A DNA stretch of 64,000 nucleotides from positions 1-64,000 of the forward strand of contig JADIMA010000040.1 in the NCBI GenBank assembly GCA_017694945.1, written 5' to 3'. This DNA is from Candidatus Merdivivens pullicola (GTDB taxonomy: Bacteria; Bacteroidota; Bacteroidia; Bacteroidales; UBA932). The notes beneath the pieces are model-generated. The model was not told the origin of the DNA. It ran no database searches and was given only the letters and a program-made list of their open reading frames with translations. The stretch's first letter is position 1. Each line of letters starts with the position of its first letter. A program made the translations under genes and the position numbers. Positions 11,751 to 25,970 of this stretch are shown in pieces.

Positions 11751-13850
11751 TTAAAATGTCAGGCTTGCCGTCAGGCGGAAATTGGTTCCGGGCATCGGGT
11801 ACCATTTGACTACTTCGTACTGTTGGTTGAATATGTTGTTTACATCAAGTGTCATTCCGAGTTCCATATCCCGTGGAAGCGCGAATGTCTTTGCCAGGGA
11901 GATGTCGCTGGTGTACCACGGCTGGATGTAGTTTACAGGTATGTTCCCGCCGAGCATCCATCTTTCACCGGTATAGATGAAACTGTAATTCAGACTCCAA
12001 CTGCGATATGTGCAGTTAATCACTGCCGAACCGCTGTGGATGGGAACATAAGGTATCTGGTCTCCGTAGTAGTCTTCCACGGCCGGGCCGAAATCCCCGC
12101 CTTTTTTCTCTTCAGTAAAGTCCTGGGCTTTTTGGAATGTATATGACAGCCTTGTTGTCACCCCGACTTCCCCGAATCTGAATGACGGCGCAAGCATGAT
12201 GTCTATGCCTCTGATTTCGACATAGCCGAGGTTGACCATCGTCCATACCAGTTGGTTGGAAGTGGGAGTGGCGATAATCTTGTCTTTTACAGTGTTGTAA
12301 TATGCGTCGATGCTTGCATCGATGCCGGCGAACCAGTTTTTCTCGAAAGTCTTTTTATATGCCGCTCCGACATTGTACTGGTCGGTATATTCCGGTTTCA
12401 GGTCGCGGCTGCCGGTCTGGACATAGTACAGGTCGTTGAATGTCGGCATGCGGAAGATTTTCTTGTAAAACGCACGGAATGTCAGATTTGTTTTTTCCCA
12501 CGGTCTGTAGGAAAGGATTGCGGCGGGAGCGAAGATGTTCTTGTCCTTGGCCGGTTCAATGTCTTTGCGTTTTCCCATGTCGTGTACATACGTGTATAGC
12601 ATGCTGGCCTGTATGTCCAGTCCGCAGTCAAGGTTGAATGAAGTGGCGAGTGCGGCGAGTGCGGTAATCCTTCTCGGCTGGATGAAGTTGGCATTGAACA
12701 TGTCCGTCCCGGTGGCGTCGAGGCTGTTCCACTGAAAGTCGCCGGCAATGTTTATGTGCCAGAAACTTAGCGGTGAGAACATGTGAGAGGTGGTAAAATA
12801 CAGTTCCTGCTGCCAATAACTGTTGTCCATCGGCTGGACGGTGCTTTCAGGAGGCATTACATAATTCATGTAATCATTGGAATATTTTATCCTGAACCGA
12901 TAACTGTATGCCCTGCCGACGGTCTGTGTGAGCGAGGACTGTATGAAAATGTTCCTGTCTTTCTGCCTGTCTTCGTTCAGGAGAGAAATACCGTAGTCTT
13001 CTTTTACGGCGGCGCCGGGATAACCTCTGTCGGAGTTGTAAAAATATATTTTCGCATCCCAGTCCCCTCCGTTTATTTTTCCGAAAACTGCAGCCTCCGC
13101 CCTTATTGAAAAAACATCTCCGTTGCGGCGCGTTTCAGTCGTATCATAGCCTCCTCCGTCAAGGCCTTTTTTGCTGTAGCGGAATTTGTATTTTCCTGAA
13201 GTGTTCATGACTTCTGCATTCACGGACGTACTGATGTTGTCATTTAATCTGTAATCCCAGGTGAACGTGCCGTCTATCAGATCGAATGAACCGGTCCTTA
13301 CCTTGAAATTAAAGTTGTTCCGTCTGTCATCCGTGAAAACGGGTCTCCTGCTTGTCATGTAGAATGCCGCTGCGGATGCGAAGTCCTTTGCCGACTGGAA
13401 GATGTCGCTTTTCTGCCCGTTATAGACTGAAATCATTTCCATGTTGTCCATGGAAAACCTTCCGAGATCGACGGTTCCGTTCTGTGCGTTTCCAATCTGT
13501 ATCCCGTCGTAGAAAACCCCGACATGCTGGCTTCCGAGGCTTCTTACATTAACTGTCTTAAGGCCCCCAATGCCCCCGTAGTCCTTTATCTGCACGCCGG
13601 AAAAATATCTCAAGGCGTCGGTGACGGAATTTCCGCCGAGTCTTTTCAGTTCTTCGCCGCGCAATGTCTGCGAAGGGATGATTTCAGTCTTTCTGGCGGC
13701 TGAGACAACGGCTATGTCGAGCGTGTCTATGGCCGTATCCAGACTGTCGGCAGCCGTTCCGGGGCGGGATGCAAAAACATGTGCGGCGGTAAGAACCGCC
13801 GCAAAGCATGAAATTATGACCTTTTTCAGTGCTTGTTTCATCTTTGCCAT
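11751..13850 (-). CDS. btuB: TonB-dependent cobalamin receptor, BtuB-like
   Basis: A 699-residue protein. Signal peptide (KKVIISCFAAVLTAAHVFA); the TonB box/plug region begins near IDTLDIAVVSAARK. The plug continues with LRYFSGVQIKDYGGIGGLKTVNVRSLGSQHVGVFYDGI, and the rest is a 22-strand-type barrel ending in an aromatic residue (LTASLTF). It has no N-terminal carboxypeptidase-like domain, so it is the classic small BtuB type, not SusC type. A cobalamin riboswitch precedes it directly, which identifies the substrate class as corrinoids. First gene of a three-gene operon with the btuG-like and PKD lipoproteins. ATG at 13850 is kept, but the ATG three codons later (13841) has better spacing from AAAGGAT. 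Confidence 0.93.
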   Translation of the reverse strand: MAKMKQALKKVIISCFAAVLTAAHVFASRPGTAADSLDTAIDTLDIAVVSAARKTEIIPSQTLRGEELKRLGGNSVTDALRYFSGVQIKDYGGIGGLKTVNVRSLGSQHVGVFYDGIQIGNAQNGTVDLGRFSMDNMEMISVYNGQKSDIFQSAKDFASAAAFYMTSRRPVFTDDRRNNFNFKVRTGSFDLIDGTFTWDYRLNDNISTSVNAEVMNTSGKYKFRYSKKGLDGGGYDTTETRRNGDVFSIRAEAAVFGKINGGDWDAKIYFYNSDRGYPGAAVKEDYGISLLNEDRQKDRNIFIQSSLTQTVGRAYSYRFRIKYSNDYMNYVMPPESTVQPMDNSYWQQELYFTTSHMFSPLSFWHINIAGDFQWNSLDATGTDMFNANFIQPRRITALAALATSFNLDCGLDIQASMLYTYVHDMGKRKDIEPAKDKNIFAPAAILSYRPWEKTNLTFRAFYKKIFRMPTFNDLYYVQTGSRDLKPEYTDQYNVGAAYKKTFEKNWFAGIDASIDAYYNTVKDKIIATPTSNQLVWTMVNLGYVEIRGIDIMLAPSFRFGEVGVTTRLSYTFQKAQDFTEEKKGGDFGPAVEDYYGDQIPYVPIHSGSAVINCTYRSWSLNYSFIYTGERWMLGGNIPVNYIQPWYTSDISLAKTFALPRDMELGMTLDVNNIFNQQYEVVKWYPMPGTNFRLTASLTF

Positions 13851-13907
13851 TATCCTTTTCCCATTCTCCGCAGGAATTCCGAAACCTCATGGTTTGCGGA
13901 TAAAAAC

Positions 13908-14104
13908 ATAACGGCAGGTCTCCTGGCTCGTTCCGGCCGCAACGCCTTCCCATTATCCTGTCATTGCTGACATGTTAACAGTGGCAGTCGAATGTGCGGT
14001 CTTGCCCGTTTAATGGCGGAACTTACAGTAGCGGGAACTGCATCCGGTTTTCACGGATTTCCCTTTTATTTTCCTGTCCCGGACGGAACAGGAAAAACCG
14101 TTAC
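13908..14104 (-). promoter_or_regulatory. Cobalamin (adenosylcobalamin-type) riboswitch upstream of btuB
   Basis: On the minus strand the conserved elements appear in order: AAAAGGGAAATCCGTGAAAA, GCAGTTCCCGCTACTGTAA, GACTGCCACTG, TGGGAAGGC, and the B12 box GCCAGGAGACCTGCC (13913-13928). A -7 box TATCTTTG (14111-14118) places the RNA start close to 14104. About 60 nt separate the B12 box from the btuB start, without a clear intrinsic terminator, so control of translation initiation is more likely than attenuation. High corrinoid should turn the btuB operon off. Confidence 0.95.
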
Positions 14105-14110
14105 AGTCGG

Positions 14111-14118
14111 CAAAGATA
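14111..14118 (-). promoter_or_regulatory. -7 promoter box for the btuB operon
   Basis: TATCTTTG on the minus strand matches TAnnTTTG and lies just upstream of the first riboswitch helix. No convincing -33 TTTG was seen at the usual distance. Confidence 0.5.
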
Positions 14119-14211: not shown

Positions 14212-14970
14212 TCATCCCACCACATCGACAATTGTCAGAAATTCAAATTTTTTCACGGGATAATTGCCGTGTTCGTCAATGCCAATGAAAATGACCGCTA
14301 AATACATTGATCCGTCGGCCCAAGGCTGAATAGTCACCGGTACAGTGAATTCACCGTAGTTTTCGATTTGATACATGTAATCCTCGAGATGGATAATATT
14401 GTTGTTGTCCCCGGCAAGTAATTCACATATATGGCCTGGGGAACTTGACCAGACTGTAGAAATATTTGCAAACCCCAGTCCGAAATCCGCAGTGTCTTCT
14501 CCTAATTCTATTTCAAGAGGAATGTCTGCTTCCCCGTATTCCATTGCTTCTTTCCATATTTCCCGCATTGATTTTGTGCAAGTAACGTATATCGTCGGAT
14601 ATGCGTTCTGTGATACCACGAAGTCAAAAGAACCTCCGTCGTCGAAGTTCACATGCAGTGTAGCCGTACGGTGTTCCGCGGTTTCGTTTTGCTCTATTTC
14701 CAGCCTGAGTCTCCCGTCTCCCCGGGCTATCGTCGAAATCCAGTCCGCATCGGATTCCACGGATGATATCTCTCTGTCGCCGATGATGTCGAGCGTGTCG
14801 ATGCATTCAAGGAATGCCGCATCGATGCGTGATGTTTCAAAAGGATATGAAGTATCTGTCGTGTCTCCTGTGACGGGTCCTGGAGGTGTCGGGGATGGCT
14901 TGTCGCAGGCTTGTAACGCGGAAATAATAAATAATGTTATAGACAAATATAAAACTAATGAATTTTTCAT
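14212..14970 (-). CDS. BACON-like lipoprotein, copy 1 of a tandem pair
   Basis: A 252-residue protein with a lipoprotein signal ending in SALQAC and a Pro-rich linker. Residues about 45-135 resemble the BACON domain (IGDREISSVESDADWIST, then LHVNFDDGGSFDFVVSQNAYP), an all-beta fold common in Bacteroidota surface proteins. The remaining 110 residues (ending EFLTIVDVVG) are unassigned. It is about 776 bp downstream of its close paralogue and shares nearly identical sequence in the first two thirds and in the 45 bp before the start, so this is a recent tandem duplication. Location on the cell envelope is likely; ligand unknown. Confidence 0.8.
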   Translation of the reverse strand: MKNSLVLYLSITLFIISALQACDKPSPTPPGPVTGDTTDTSYPFETSRIDAAFLECIDTLDIIGDREISSVESDADWISTIARGDGRLRLEIEQNETAEHRTATLHVNFDDGGSFDFVVSQNAYPTIYVTCTKSMREIWKEAMEYGEADIPLEIELGEDTADFGLGFANISTVWSSSPGHICELLAGDNNNIIHLEDYMYQIENYGEFTVPVTIQPWADGSMYLAVIFIGIDEHGNYPVKKFEFLTIVDVVG

Positions 14971-15790
14971 GGCATTGCAGTAGTAAAGTGTTTATAATAA
15001 TTGGTTTTAAGATTCATCAACATTTACGGAACTTATTAAACATATTGAACAATCATGCAAAATTCATATTCCATAGGATAATTGCCGTTTCCGTCAATAG
15101 CAAGGTAAATGACACCCAAATAAATTTGGTTATCGTAACTGTCGTAGGCTACAGGTATTGTGAATTCCCCCGAGTTTTCAATCTGGTACATGTAATCATC
15201 AAGATGTATAACACTGTCATTGTCTCCGGCGAGGATTTCACATAACGTAGATTTATCATTCAACAGGGTATTGGCGGTTGCAAACGCCAGTCCGAAATCC
15301 GCAGTGTCTTCTCCTAATTCTATTTCAAGAGGAATGTCGGCTTTCCCGTATTCGAAAATCTCTGTTGCTATTTCAGCAGGGTCTTTTGTGTAAGTAACAT
15401 ATATCATCGGATATGCGTTCTGTGATACCACTAAGTCAAAAGAGCCTCCGTCGTCGAAGTTCACATGCAGTGTATCCGTACGGTGTTCCGCGGTTTCGTT
15501 CTGCTTTATTTCCAGCCTTAGGCTCCCGTTTTCCTGAGCCATCGTCGAAATCCAGTCCGCATCGGATTCCACGGATGATATTTCTCTGTCGCCGATGATG
15601 TCGAGTGTGTCGATGCATTCAAGGAATGCCGCATCGATGCGTGAAGTTTCAAAAGGATATGAAGTATCTGTCGAATTTGGCTGAACAGGTTTCGTGCATG
15701 CCGAGAGCAGGCACAGTGAAAATATTATTAATATCGCTTTTTTCATGACGTTGCAGTAGTAAAGTGTTTATAATATTTGGTTTTAAGATT
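14970..15790. repeat. Tandem duplication unit of about 776 bp carrying the two BACON lipoproteins
   Basis: The upstream segments TTGCAGTAGTAAAGTGTTTA are identical before both starts (14975 and 15751 regions), continuing into TTGGTTTTAAGATT. Together with the matching coding sequence this shows that the duplication covered gene plus leader. The 3' parts of the genes have diverged. Confidence 0.75.
15036..15746 (-). CDS. BACON-like lipoprotein, copy 2 of a tandem pair
   Basis: A 236-residue protein with signal and lipobox LCLLSAC. The central block DTSYPFETSRIDAAFLECID and the BACON-like ISSVESDADWIST are identical to copy 1, and LHVNFDDGGSFDLVVSQNAYP differs by one residue. The two diverge most after about residue 115 (IYVTYTKDPAEIATEI here). 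The stop at 15036 and the start of copy 1 at 14970 are separated by 65 bp, so they may be co-transcribed from the promoter at about 15931. Confidence 0.8.
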   Translation of the reverse strand: MKKAILIIFSLCLLSACTKPVQPNSTDTSYPFETSRIDAAFLECIDTLDIIGDREISSVESDADWISTMAQENGSLRLEIKQNETAEHRTDTLHVNFDDGGSFDLVVSQNAYPMIYVTYTKDPAEIATEIFEYGKADIPLEIELGEDTADFGLAFATANTLLNDKSTLCEILAGDNDSVIHLDDYMYQIENSGEFTIPVAYDSYDNQIYLGVIYLAIDGNGNYPMEYEFCMIVQYV

Positions 15791-15970: not shown

Positions 15971-16357
15971 TATTATTCGCAAAAATACCCCTTGAAGAAT
16001 AACCGGGTACGCCTTCTTTGGGCCGCGCCACGACTTAATTTAAAAATATTGCAATATATTGATATATAGTGAATTGCTATTGTAACAATATTTTATAAGT
16101 GTGGATTCTGAGGGGTTCGGAAGCCCTTGAAATCCACACTAATTTTTCGTGATGTATGTTGTTTTCCTCTGATTTACAATGTGTTGTGTAAACAAAAGTT
16201 AGGTCGGGGCGTGGCCTTGAGTGCACGACACCGCATTGCTCGGCGCAACCGTTCCGCAATGTGATAAGAGTTTCGGGAAAGTGCCCGTGATTCCGGCAAA
16301 TCCTTGGCACTTTTCCCTCATCCGCACACATAAGGGGTATTTTTGCGGATAATCATA
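15971..16357. mobile_element. MITE-like intergenic element, copy A (nested inverted repeats, central hairpin)
   Basis: The ends are inverted copies: ATTATTCGCAAAAATACCCC at the left and GGGGTATTTTTGCGGATAAT at the right (one mismatch). Inside lies a second inverted pair, GGCCGCGCCACGACTTAATT (16021-16040) and its imperfect partner TTAGGTCGGGGCGTGGCC. The core of about 196 bp has a central hairpin AGTGTGGATT / AATCCACACT (about 16098-16140) and a TTTACA/TGTAAA stem. Copy B is the same element in the opposite orientation: about 89% identical by eye in the core, with the hairpin region unchanged. No ORF is carried. This is the pattern of a non-autonomous transposable element or intergenic repeat; no transposase is in the window. 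Confidence 0.8.
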
Positions 16358-17608: not shown

Positions 17609-19624
17609 ATGGATTTTAAGATTAATTCTGCATATAAGCCGGCAGGAGACCAGCCGGAGGCTATTGGCCGGATTTCACAACTGCTTGAAAGCGGGGTGGA
17701 TGCCGTGACTTTGCTCGGAGTGACAGGCTCCGGCAAGACTTTCACAATGGCGAATGTGATAGAGAAGATGCAGCGTCCCGCGCTTGTTCTCAGCCACAAC
17801 AAGACACTGGCGGCGCAGTTGTACGGCGAGTTCAAGTCTTTTTTCCCGGACAACGCAGTGGAATATTTCGTCTCCTATTATGATTATTACCAGCCTGAAG
17901 CATATATTCCGACAACGGATACATATATTGAGAAAGATTTGAGTATCAACGAAGAGATTGAAAAACTCCGCCTTTCGGCCACCTCGGCCCTGCTTTCCGG
18001 AAGGAGGGACGTGATTGTGATTTCCAGCGTGTCTTGCCTGTACGGAATAGGAAATCCTGAAGATTTCCATGCCCAGATGGTTTCTGTCCGCAGAGGCGAT
18101 ACTGTTTCCCGGAACAAACTGCTGTATTCATTGGTCGATGCCCTTTACAACCGTACCGAAGGAGAGTTTACCCGTGGAAGTTTCAGGGTAAAGGGAGATG
18201 TGGTGGATATTTTCCCTGCATACGGCGATTATGCATACAGGATAGAGTTTTTCGGTGACGAGGTGGAGGAGATAAGCATGATAGAGCCGGTAACGGCGAT
18301 GAAACTGGATACCCTTGAACAGGCGATAATCTTTCCGGCAAACAATTTCGTTACGACAAGAGAGCGTTCGGTAAAGGCTGTTTCACAGATTCAGGACGAC
18401 CTTCACAAGCGTTACGAGTATTTCATGGAAATTGGCAGGACTCAGGAGGCCAACAGGCTCAAGCAGAGAGTTGAATACGATCTGGAGATGATAAAGGAGA
18501 TGGGGTACTGCCCCGGCATTGAGAACTATTCCCGTTATTTCGACGGGCGGGCGGAAGGAATGCGCCCTTTCTGTCTTATCGATTATTTCCCTGACGATTT
18601 TCTTACGTTCATTGATGAATCCCACGTGACTCTGCCGCAGATAAGGGCCATGTTCGGAGGGGATCATTCGCGGAAAAACATATTGATAGACTACGGGTTC
18701 AGATTACCTGCCGCTGCCGACAACAGGCCTTTGAAGTTTGATGAATTCGAGGAGATAACGGGGCAGACCGTATATGTGAGCGCAACTCCCGGCGATTATG
18801 AACTGGAAAAGACCGGAGGGGAGATTGTGGAACAGGTCGTAAGGCCGACCGGGCTTCTTGATCCTCCGATAGAGGTAAGGCCTGTAAAGAACCAGATAGA
18901 CGATCTCATGGAGGAAGTCCAGTTGCGCATTGAAAGGAACGAAAGAGTGCTTGTCACTACCCTGACAAAGAGGATGGCTGAAGAACTGGACAAATATCTG
19001 AACCGTGCAGGGGTGCGCTCCAGATATATACATTCTGATGTGGACACACTTGAAAGGGTTGAAATCATAGAGGATTTCAAGGCCGGAAGTTTTGATGTGC
19101 TGGTTGGAGTGAACCTTCTCAGGGAGGGGCTCGATATCCCGTCGGTGTCTCTTGTCGCGATACTTGATGCCGACAAGGAGGGCTTTCTACGCAGCGGCCG
19201 CTCTCTTACCCAGACGGCCGGAAGGGCGGCAAGGAACGTTAACGGATTGGTAATCATGTATGCAGATACTGTTACCAAATCCATGCAGGAGACTATTGAC
19301 GAGACCAACCGCCGTCGCGAGAAGCAGATGGCATACAACAGGGAACACGGCATAGTTCCCAAGCAGGTTGAGACGAAGATGAATACCCTGGTGCCTGCTT
19401 CCGGCAAGTCGCAGCGTCCTTACAGTCAACATGATGCACCACCGGCTGCATTGAATGATCCCGTACTGTCGAAGATGAACCGCAGTGAACTGGAAGACGC
19501 CATGCAGGATGCCCGGCAGAGGATGGAGGAAGCGGCCCGCAATCTGGATTTCGTGAATGCGGCCAGGTACAGGGATGAAATGTGGGAGATAAAAGATGTC
19601 ATTCTTGACAGATTCAAAAACTGA
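17609..19624 (+). CDS. uvrB: Excinuclease ABC subunit B
   Basis: A 671-residue protein, full family length. Walker A is GVTGSGKTF (about residues 37-45). The beta-hairpin that clamps DNA is YYDYYQPEAYIP, helicase motif II is FIDESHVTLP, and motif VI is QTAGRAARN. The C-terminal UVR motif that binds UvrC is in LEDAMQDARQRMEEAARNLDF. UvrB verifies damage after loading by UvrA and recruits UvrC. It is first of a run uvrB - RSH - uvrA on the same strand with gaps of 12 bp and a 4-bp overlap, so two repair genes and an alarmone synthetase are probably co-transcribed. Confidence 0.98.
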   Translation: MDFKINSAYKPAGDQPEAIGRISQLLESGVDAVTLLGVTGSGKTFTMANVIEKMQRPALVLSHNKTLAAQLYGEFKSFFPDNAVEYFVSYYDYYQPEAYIPTTDTYIEKDLSINEEIEKLRLSATSALLSGRRDVIVISSVSCLYGIGNPEDFHAQMVSVRRGDTVSRNKLLYSLVDALYNRTEGEFTRGSFRVKGDVVDIFPAYGDYAYRIEFFGDEVEEISMIEPVTAMKLDTLEQAIIFPANNFVTTRERSVKAVSQIQDDLHKRYEYFMEIGRTQEANRLKQRVEYDLEMIKEMGYCPGIENYSRYFDGRAEGMRPFCLIDYFPDDFLTFIDESHVTLPQIRAMFGGDHSRKNILIDYGFRLPAAADNRPLKFDEFEEITGQTVYVSATPGDYELEKTGGEIVEQVVRPTGLLDPPIEVRPVKNQIDDLMEEVQLRIERNERVLVTTLTKRMAEELDKYLNRAGVRSRYIHSDVDTLERVEIIEDFKAGSFDVLVGVNLLREGLDIPSVSLVAILDADKEGFLRSGRSLTQTAGRAARNVNGLVIMYADTVTKSMQETIDETNRRREKQMAYNREHGIVPKQVETKMNTLVPASGKSQRPYSQHDAPPAALNDPVLSKMNRSELEDAMQDARQRMEEAARNLDFVNAARYRDEMWEIKDVILDRFKN

Positions 19625-25618: not shown

Positions 25619-25970
25619 ACGATTATCCGCAAAAATATCCCCTTGTATGGGAGAAAGTGCCTTCCGGCAGTATGCTCCGGGCATGGTGGCCTGAATCGTG
25701 CAACGGCATGAAGCGCACCAATGCCACGCCCCGACTTAATTTTTGTTTATACAACCCATTGTAAATCAGTAATAAACAACACGCACCACGAAAAATAAGT
25801 GTGGATTTCAAGGGCTTCCGAACCCCTCAGAATCCACACTTATAAAATATTGTTACAATAGTAATTCGCTATATATCAATATATTGTAATATCTTTGAAT
25901 TAAGTCGGGGCGTGGCCCAAAGAAGGCGTATCCGCTTATTCTTCAAGAGGTATTTTTGCGGATAATCATA
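25619..25970. mobile_element. MITE-like intergenic element, copy B (reverse orientation to copy A)
   Basis: Outer ends are GATTATCCGCAAAAATATCC (left) and GGTATTTTTGCGGATAATC (right). The inner inverted repeat is perfect over 19 bp: GCCACGCCCCGACTTAATT (25723-25741) against AATTAAGTCGGGGCGTGGC (25899-25917). The central stem AAGTGTGGATT / AATCCACACTT is an uninterrupted 11 bp. The reverse complement aligns with copy A from the left end to the inner right repeat; beyond that, the stretch between inner and outer right repeat differs in sequence and length. It lies between divergent genes and its right end may supply the -33 box for the TPR gene. Confidence 0.82.

Follow-up and report, generated by a model that had tools for sequence, protein, structure and literature searches.

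What kind of element occupies the intergenic region at positions 15971-16357 of a contig of Candidatus Merdivivens pullicola, where two nested layers of inverted repeats surround a hairpin, and which enzyme could have spread it? The window, i.e., the whole stretch of 64,000 nucleotides that was analysed, belongs to a genome of 1.89 Mb in 87 contigs (G000), which is compared here with two other members of Merdivivens, a GTDB genus of chicken-gut bacteria, Candidatus Merdivivens pullistercoris (G001) and the chicken isolate Muribaculum sp. An289 (G002), whose assembly is 99% complete. The neighbourhood of the element includes a cobalamin riboswitch (RF00174, 94.9 bits, 13896-14117, minus strand) upstream of a TonB-dependent-receptor-like gene (11751-13850), and two lipoprotein-like genes on the minus strand (14212-14970 and 15036-15746), which are tandem duplicates, 94% identical over 290 nt, with an upstream sequence that is likewise duplicated.

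Anatomy of the two copies

The two inverted-repeat layers and the central hairpin described in the first-pass annotation were all located. From outer end to outer end, as defined by an outer-end pattern search and by the sequence, the composite of copy A covers 15971-16354 on the plus strand. Its left outer end, TATTATTCGCAAAAATACC (15971-15989, plus), is followed by a left arm of the CCTTGAAGAATAACCGGGTACGCCTTCTTTG type (15990-16020, plus), with the same junction as in most G000 copies, while the right outer end, GGTATTTTTGCGGATAATC (16336-16354), found by the same search, lies on the minus strand. Between them stands the inner 196-bp A element (16021-16216, plus), member of a family of at least 60 copies of 195-197 bp and candidate cognate element of the enzyme named below RAYT-A. 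Pattern searches place its 18-bp terminal inverted repeats at 16021-16038 (GGCCGCGCCACGACTTAA, plus; 91.6% paired cells in 52 copies) and 16199-16216 (TTAGGTCGGGGCGTGGCC, minus). Inside, the alignment reveals a conserved motif, TTGATATATAGTGAATT (16059-16075, plus; family consensus TTGATATACA.T..ATT, conservation 0.82), and a direct repeat of it, CTGATTTACAATGTGTT (16169-16185, plus). The central hairpin GTGTGGATT...AATCCACAC (16097-16141, plus; stem 16099-16139), recognised by covariation and folding, is followed by a T-run that is kept in the family (16143-16147, plus). The right arm (16217-16335) differs from copy to copy and contains in copy A the hairpin GGGAAAGTG...CACTTTTCC (16275-16317, plus), which resembles a hairpin by a different, short Y1 transposase gene of the genus.

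The composite of copy B, retrieved with the outer-end pattern, lies at 25621-25967 on the minus strand, and its inner A element, identified by inner-end search and sequence comparison, at 25722-25917, also minus. The opposite orientation of the copies had been seen in the first-pass annotation, and its estimates of about 89% agreement in the inner 196 bp and of an identical hairpin block of about 65 nt come very close to the values measured: 90% identity and an identical run of 64 nt that covers the hairpin. The genes flanking copy A differ from those flanking copy B, which excludes a segmental duplication as the origin of the pair. The claim that the hairpin is conserved beyond the ends holds for the A/B pair (98% vs 89%) but does not extend to the family, since over 52 copies conservation is 0.86 in the hairpin and 0.90 in the ends (0.91 in the hairpin stem and 0.70 in the rest). 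The A element folds far better than shuffled sequences, with z values of -6.5 and -7.2 (as RNA or DNA).

A genus-wide family of nearly constant length

Searches of the genome with the two types of ends, proposed at the outset as a check, recovered common ends: the outer-end consensus GATTATCCGCAAAAATACC, allowing up to 3 mismatches, gave 66 matches in G000 vs 1 for a reversed control pattern, and the inner-end pattern gave 77 vs 5 for its control. With copy A as query, BLAST located the element at about 40 places in G000 and at further ones in G001 and G002; 56 other genomes of the order gave none. A profile built from 52 copies gave 102, 73 and 51 matches in G000, G001 and G002, corresponding to roughly 50, 37 and 26 places, because most copies of this near-palindromic element match on both strands; in 246 other genomes of the family it returned nothing convincing for the A element. 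One further genome (G251) yielded a weak profile match (E 7e-4, 249 genomes searched), which we regard as chance, as we do single matches in Omnitrophota and Flavobacteriaceae, in which the spacing differs. A plasmid collection gave no match. Two contigs filed as Ca. Onthomorpha intestinigallinarum (L116, DXGG01000003.1; L121, DXGG01000054.1) carry the element and look like Merdivivens DNA; horizontal spread to that lineage was rejected because the flanks of both are 93-96% identical to Merdivivens loci, and the contigs are probably misbinned. The inner element is a genus-wide repeat family in three Merdivivens species.

The length of the element hardly varies. Where both inner ends are recognised in G000, 25 of 29 places have a spacing of exactly 196 bp and 2 more are within 1 bp of it. 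Pairwise identity among 62 copies from the three species has a median of 70% and a minimum of 51%; the 52 near-complete copies nevertheless fit into an alignment of 197 columns that needs about 6 single-base indel events, vs about 1,720 substitutions on the tree. Within the same set of copies, substitutions outnumber indels by 497 to 3 in the inner element and by 85 to 21 in the 50-bp left arm (p 3e-14), although three arms of another type inflate the arm count. Orthologous copies carry 208 substitutions and 1 indel in the element vs 227 and 10 in the flanks (p 0.012). Five copies with large deletions (L028, L029, L045, L188 and L209) were left out of the set of 52, so that the constraint is one on small indels in otherwise complete copies. 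Three of these (L028, L045 and L029) are shortened by about 36 bp on one side, and L028 and L045, from different species, are without the same stretch.

Pairing is retained as well. The ends and the hairpin together show 67 double-change cells vs 41 in shuffles (a value reached in 0 of 500), and 88% of cells are paired vs 27-46% when the pairing is slid; the clearest compensatory columns are 3/195 (CG to GC) and 80/120 (GC to CG). Conservation is highest in CGACTTAA at the two ends, in the GTGGATT/AATCCAC stem, in the T-run after the hairpin and in the direct motifs TTGATATACA and TTGATTTACA. GTGG and CCAC (columns 82-85 and 115-118), both within the stem, are nearly invariant, being kept in 50-52 of the 52 copies. 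In the covariance check proposed at the outset, the hairpin pairing thus proved to be preserved through compensatory changes. A functional RNA cargo, suggested in the first-pass annotation, does not need to be invoked. The consensus RNA fold of 62 copies supports the ends and the hairpin with no further conserved RNA structure, and in the window Rfam matches the cobalamin riboswitch alone and not the A element. Sites with the IHF consensus are enriched in four sister elements (7 vs 0.04 expected), modestly so in A (19 in 64) and absent from family B, an unevenness for which this enrichment was set aside as evidence.

The outer GATTATCCGC ends form a second layer of repeats that can be separated from the inner element, in agreement with the initial idea of one non-autonomous element nested in another. 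In An289 the A element is mostly without outer ends, and it also stands alone beside the RAYT gene described below; conversely, the outer ends of G001 also enclose a palindromic sister family, B, of 193-194 bp, with ends GGGAACG.CCCGACTTAA and a hairpin unlike that of A. Family B was observed at L180-L185 in G001, L163 and L171-L173 in G002 and L187 in G000, and has the same end core, CGACTTAA, as A. G000 and G001 together hold 26 copies with one type of arm-inner junction and one orientation, and a single arm-bearing copy out of 27 (L019) has its inner element inverted relative to the outer arm. In most of the G000 outer units that lack an inner element, a short scar of its terminus is left, which shows that the element was lost from them. 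The right arm adds further modules: copy A holds the hairpin GGGAAAGTG...CACTTTCC, a hairpin GTGCTTTC...AAAGCACG occupies 27 distinct places among the G000 loci examined (right arms of composites), and the hairpin types of right arms also adjoin other Y1/RAYT genes. The composite with its right-arm hairpins is a BIME-like mosaic.

The RAYT-A gene and the explanations of the element

A transposase gene bounded by the 20-bp outer ends, the partner first envisaged, was not seen; instead, the inner element flanks a RAYT-type gene on another contig. This gene, RAYT-A, came to light when element-free loci with the same flanks were sought. On contig C76 of G000, a gene of 283 aa stands between inner elements at 17854-18048 and 18986-19182; its product has the motifs NHVH and YVLRNP but no obvious WQ. 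The NCBIfam model of REP-associated tyrosine transposases (NF047646) matches this product with E 2e-7, below the curated cut-off, and its match to PF01797 is likewise below cut-off. A PDB sequence search gave nothing useful, but the AlphaFold model (pLDDT 87), in which an HUH fold is predicted, has as its best PDB match 4er8, a RAYT bound to its REP hairpin (E 1e-4), followed mostly by IS200/IS605 transposases. H53 and H55 (HUH) and the catalytic Y104 are invariant in 32 relatives, so that the HUH motif, the tyrosine and a predicted Y1 fold closest to TnpA-REP are found together.

RAYT-A is intact at one orthologous locus in all three species, with 80-92% identity and a dN/dS of 0.12-0.17. A elements flank it on both sides in G000 and G002, and on one side in G001, where the other side has an empty-site scar; the gene is therefore flanked by copies of a genome-wide repeat, as expected of a REPtron. 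The empty site reads TTTCAGGCCTGAACC where G000 has TTTTTTCAGGCC, the element and GGCCCGAACC, and displays no clear target duplication. At this flank the G000 and G002 copies are in opposite orientation and G002 has about 88 bp extra; an independent insertion or an inversion is possible. The G000 copy adjoining RAYT-A belongs to the most diverged ones. Both RAYT-A orthologs and A elements are confined to the three Merdivivens genomes, no ortholog above 51% identity being present among 116 other genomes. RAYT relatives occur in half of 119 sampled genomes of the family, up to 12 in each; the other RAYT loci examined have no A element, and many have their own matching palindromes on both sides, as predicted by REPtron biology, in which each RAYT is paired with its own element (PMC6006769, PMC3733652, PMC8049555). 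Across the family, RAYT-like genes are expanded (L252-L278), many of them flanked on both sides by their own palindromes or by tandem palindromes. Elements by the closest RAYT-A relatives in G002 are alike in layout (hairpin, T-run, TGATNATCAA..ATTA sites). RAYT genes with such nearby elements, in which IHF-consensus sites are enriched, are found at L280 (G002:C31), L279 (G002:C8) and L281 (G002:C32), and the ends of the L280 element read TTTTCCACCCCATAGCCAG.

The 196-bp inner unit is most likely a non-autonomous mobile element with RAYT-A, of the HUH/Y1 TnpA-REP type, as its cognate enzyme. That RAYT-A transposes it we infer from the anatomy and the co-distribution; cleavage by RAYT-A, a single-stranded intermediate and any effect on transcription are inferred too. 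When single-stranded, for example on the lagging-strand template, the element would fold through its inverted ends and its central GTGG...CCAC hairpin; the folded strand would be recognised by RAYT-A and cut with tyrosine 104, and a copy would be joined into another intergenic site without target duplication. That the length is fixed suggests a single unit in which ends, spacers and hairpin are read together. The gene is inherited vertically, whereas the element would spread in trans, outlast species divergence and now and then be lost by deletion between short basal repeats. Copy A has it inside the GATTATCCGC-ended second layer, beside hairpins of other types, in the BIME-like mosaic. Several observations count against this reading: RAYT-A matches PF01797 and NF047646 below the curated cut-offs, GTGG/CCAC lies inside the stem and the ends are not REPs, the arrangement of the RAYT-A locus differs between species, in orientation and in the extra sequence of G002, the G000 copy next to the gene is among those most diverged, and in G000 the composite seems to have spread as one unit, which RAYT-A alone does not explain.

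A rival reading takes the outer GATTATCCGC-ended unit as the mobile element, carried by some transposase, with the A element as a passenger. The constant junction and orientation of the 26 copies and the enclosure of family B by the outer ends in G001 speak for it, but the A element does mostly without outer ends in G002 and the scars in most A-less outer units of G000 indicate that A was lost from them, so that we regard a mere passenger role as improbable; mobility of the outer unit is nevertheless compatible with mobilisation of the inner element by RAYT-A, and both can hold together. Terminal inverted repeats, multiple copies, intergenic position and lack of coding capacity would also suit a classical MITE, derived by internal deletion from a DDE transposon with inverted ends of 18-23 bp, in which case the RAYT neighbour would be a coincidence or a hitchhiker. 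This origin is judged unlikely: among the inner-end matches (up to 3 mismatches) in the three genomes no longer element with the same ends was seen, nearly all of them pairing at about 196 bp or belonging to sister family B, and aligned flanks show no consistent target duplication; neither this nor an autonomous relative, the two marks of a MITE of a DDE transposon, was found. The search for an autonomous DDE transposon with the inner ends brought none to notice, most unpaired matches being the sister family. Moreover, a MITE leaves unexplained both the elements on the two sides of the same RAYT gene in two species and the flanking palindromes of the sister RAYTs.

A host-functional element in the first place (a terminator, an RNA-stability hairpin or a nucleoid-protein site), whose mobility would be only historical, agrees with the length kept by orthologous copies, with the conserved T-run and with the orientation of the left neighbour gene, directed into the element at 44 of 65 places (p 0.006, rough ORF calls). 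Gene context leans towards the 3' side of genes (20 convergent vs 9 divergent, also on rough ORF calls), yet it is mixed, a terminator scan places no site at the element, Rfam has no match, and copies at different loci up to 98.5% identical, with bursts limited to the genus, fit a mobile element; host function as the primary explanation is accordingly judged unlikely. As for an invertible promoter or another site-specific inversion through the inner inverted repeats, L019 and the differing orientation at the RAYT-A locus (G000 vs G002) are what such a system could produce, but with only one inverted copy among the 27 bearing an arm, dozens of dispersed copies and no neighbouring invertase seen, we give it almost no credence. 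Mobilisation by RAYT-A may still go together with a present use: that orthologous copies keep a fixed length would be compatible with resident ones also serving the host. A broader and rather doubtful extension is that a RAYT class of this Bacteroidales family moves long folded elements fixed at about 196 bp, in which a central hairpin and two recurring sites are combined with inverted ends, and that selection keeps resident copies at their exact length where they lie. They would then do a host job that depends on DNA geometry, e.g., in nucleoid or transcription-boundary architecture.

Comparison with known systems

A REPtron consists of one vertically inherited HUH/Y1 gene flanked by a palindromic, extragenic, multi-copy element, and a genome may have several independent RAYT-element pairs (PMC6006769, PMC8049555). 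RAYT-A is alike in being a single, vertically inherited HUH/Y1 gene with flanking palindromic repeat copies. In the RAYT/REP/REPIN systems, however, a REPIN is made of two inverted REPs of 20-40 bp and a short, highly variable spacer, while the A element has a fixed 196 bp, 18-bp ends that are not hairpins, and a separate hairpin; REPs carry a GT[AG]G tetranucleotide at the hairpin foot; the A element has no unpaired GTAG foot, and its GTGG/CCAC, inside the stem, resembles the 'double foot' REPs (PMC6006769). With GTGG/CCAC in the stem, no unpaired GTAG foot and ends that are not REPs, the element is no textbook REPIN; from the combined analysis it is concluded that it would be the cognate mobile element of RAYT-A and work like a REPIN, though outside the strict definition.

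The TnpA-Y1 subclass 2.6 of Bacteroidetes comprises genes flanked by 'atypical secondary structures' repeated in the genome (PMC6006769), and RAYT-A shares with it the host phylum, the NHVH motif and the repeated atypical flanking palindromes. It falls outside the subclass, defined by NH[LIV]H, WQ, YIH[QN]NP and a length of about 179 aa, since it has 283 aa, YVLRNP and no WQ seen. TIRtrons, in which a Y1 transposase (TIRYT) is flanked by repeats with long inverted ends that form their own family (PMC3733652), are also similar, but their motif GGGGWSAS is absent from the A ends, which read GTCGGGGCGTGGCC, and each A flank is a whole element with two inverted ends of its own. As in the BIMEs of enterobacteria, several palindromic modules share one intergenic region; unlike in BIMEs, several unrelated RAYT types and the outer-end family appear to have supplied the modules of this mosaic. 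ERIC/IRU, RUP, Correia and other bacterial MITEs are short, palindromic, intergenic and of nearly fixed length; to our knowledge none of them has a linked RAYT, as the A element does.

RAYTs are regarded, together with their repeats, as domesticated and long-lived. The 'atypical structures' around Bacteroidetes RAYTs were first noted in 2018 (PMC6006769). Here, a single genus offers intact RAYT-element pairs, a cultured isolate (An289) and sister RAYTs with their own palindromes, together with an element that barely varies in length even where sequence identity has fallen to about 50%, so that the substrate rules and a possible host role are directly testable. RAYT/REP systems as such are known; an element of fixed length, 196 bp, that combines inverted ends with a hairpin is, as far as we have found, an undescribed variant of them.
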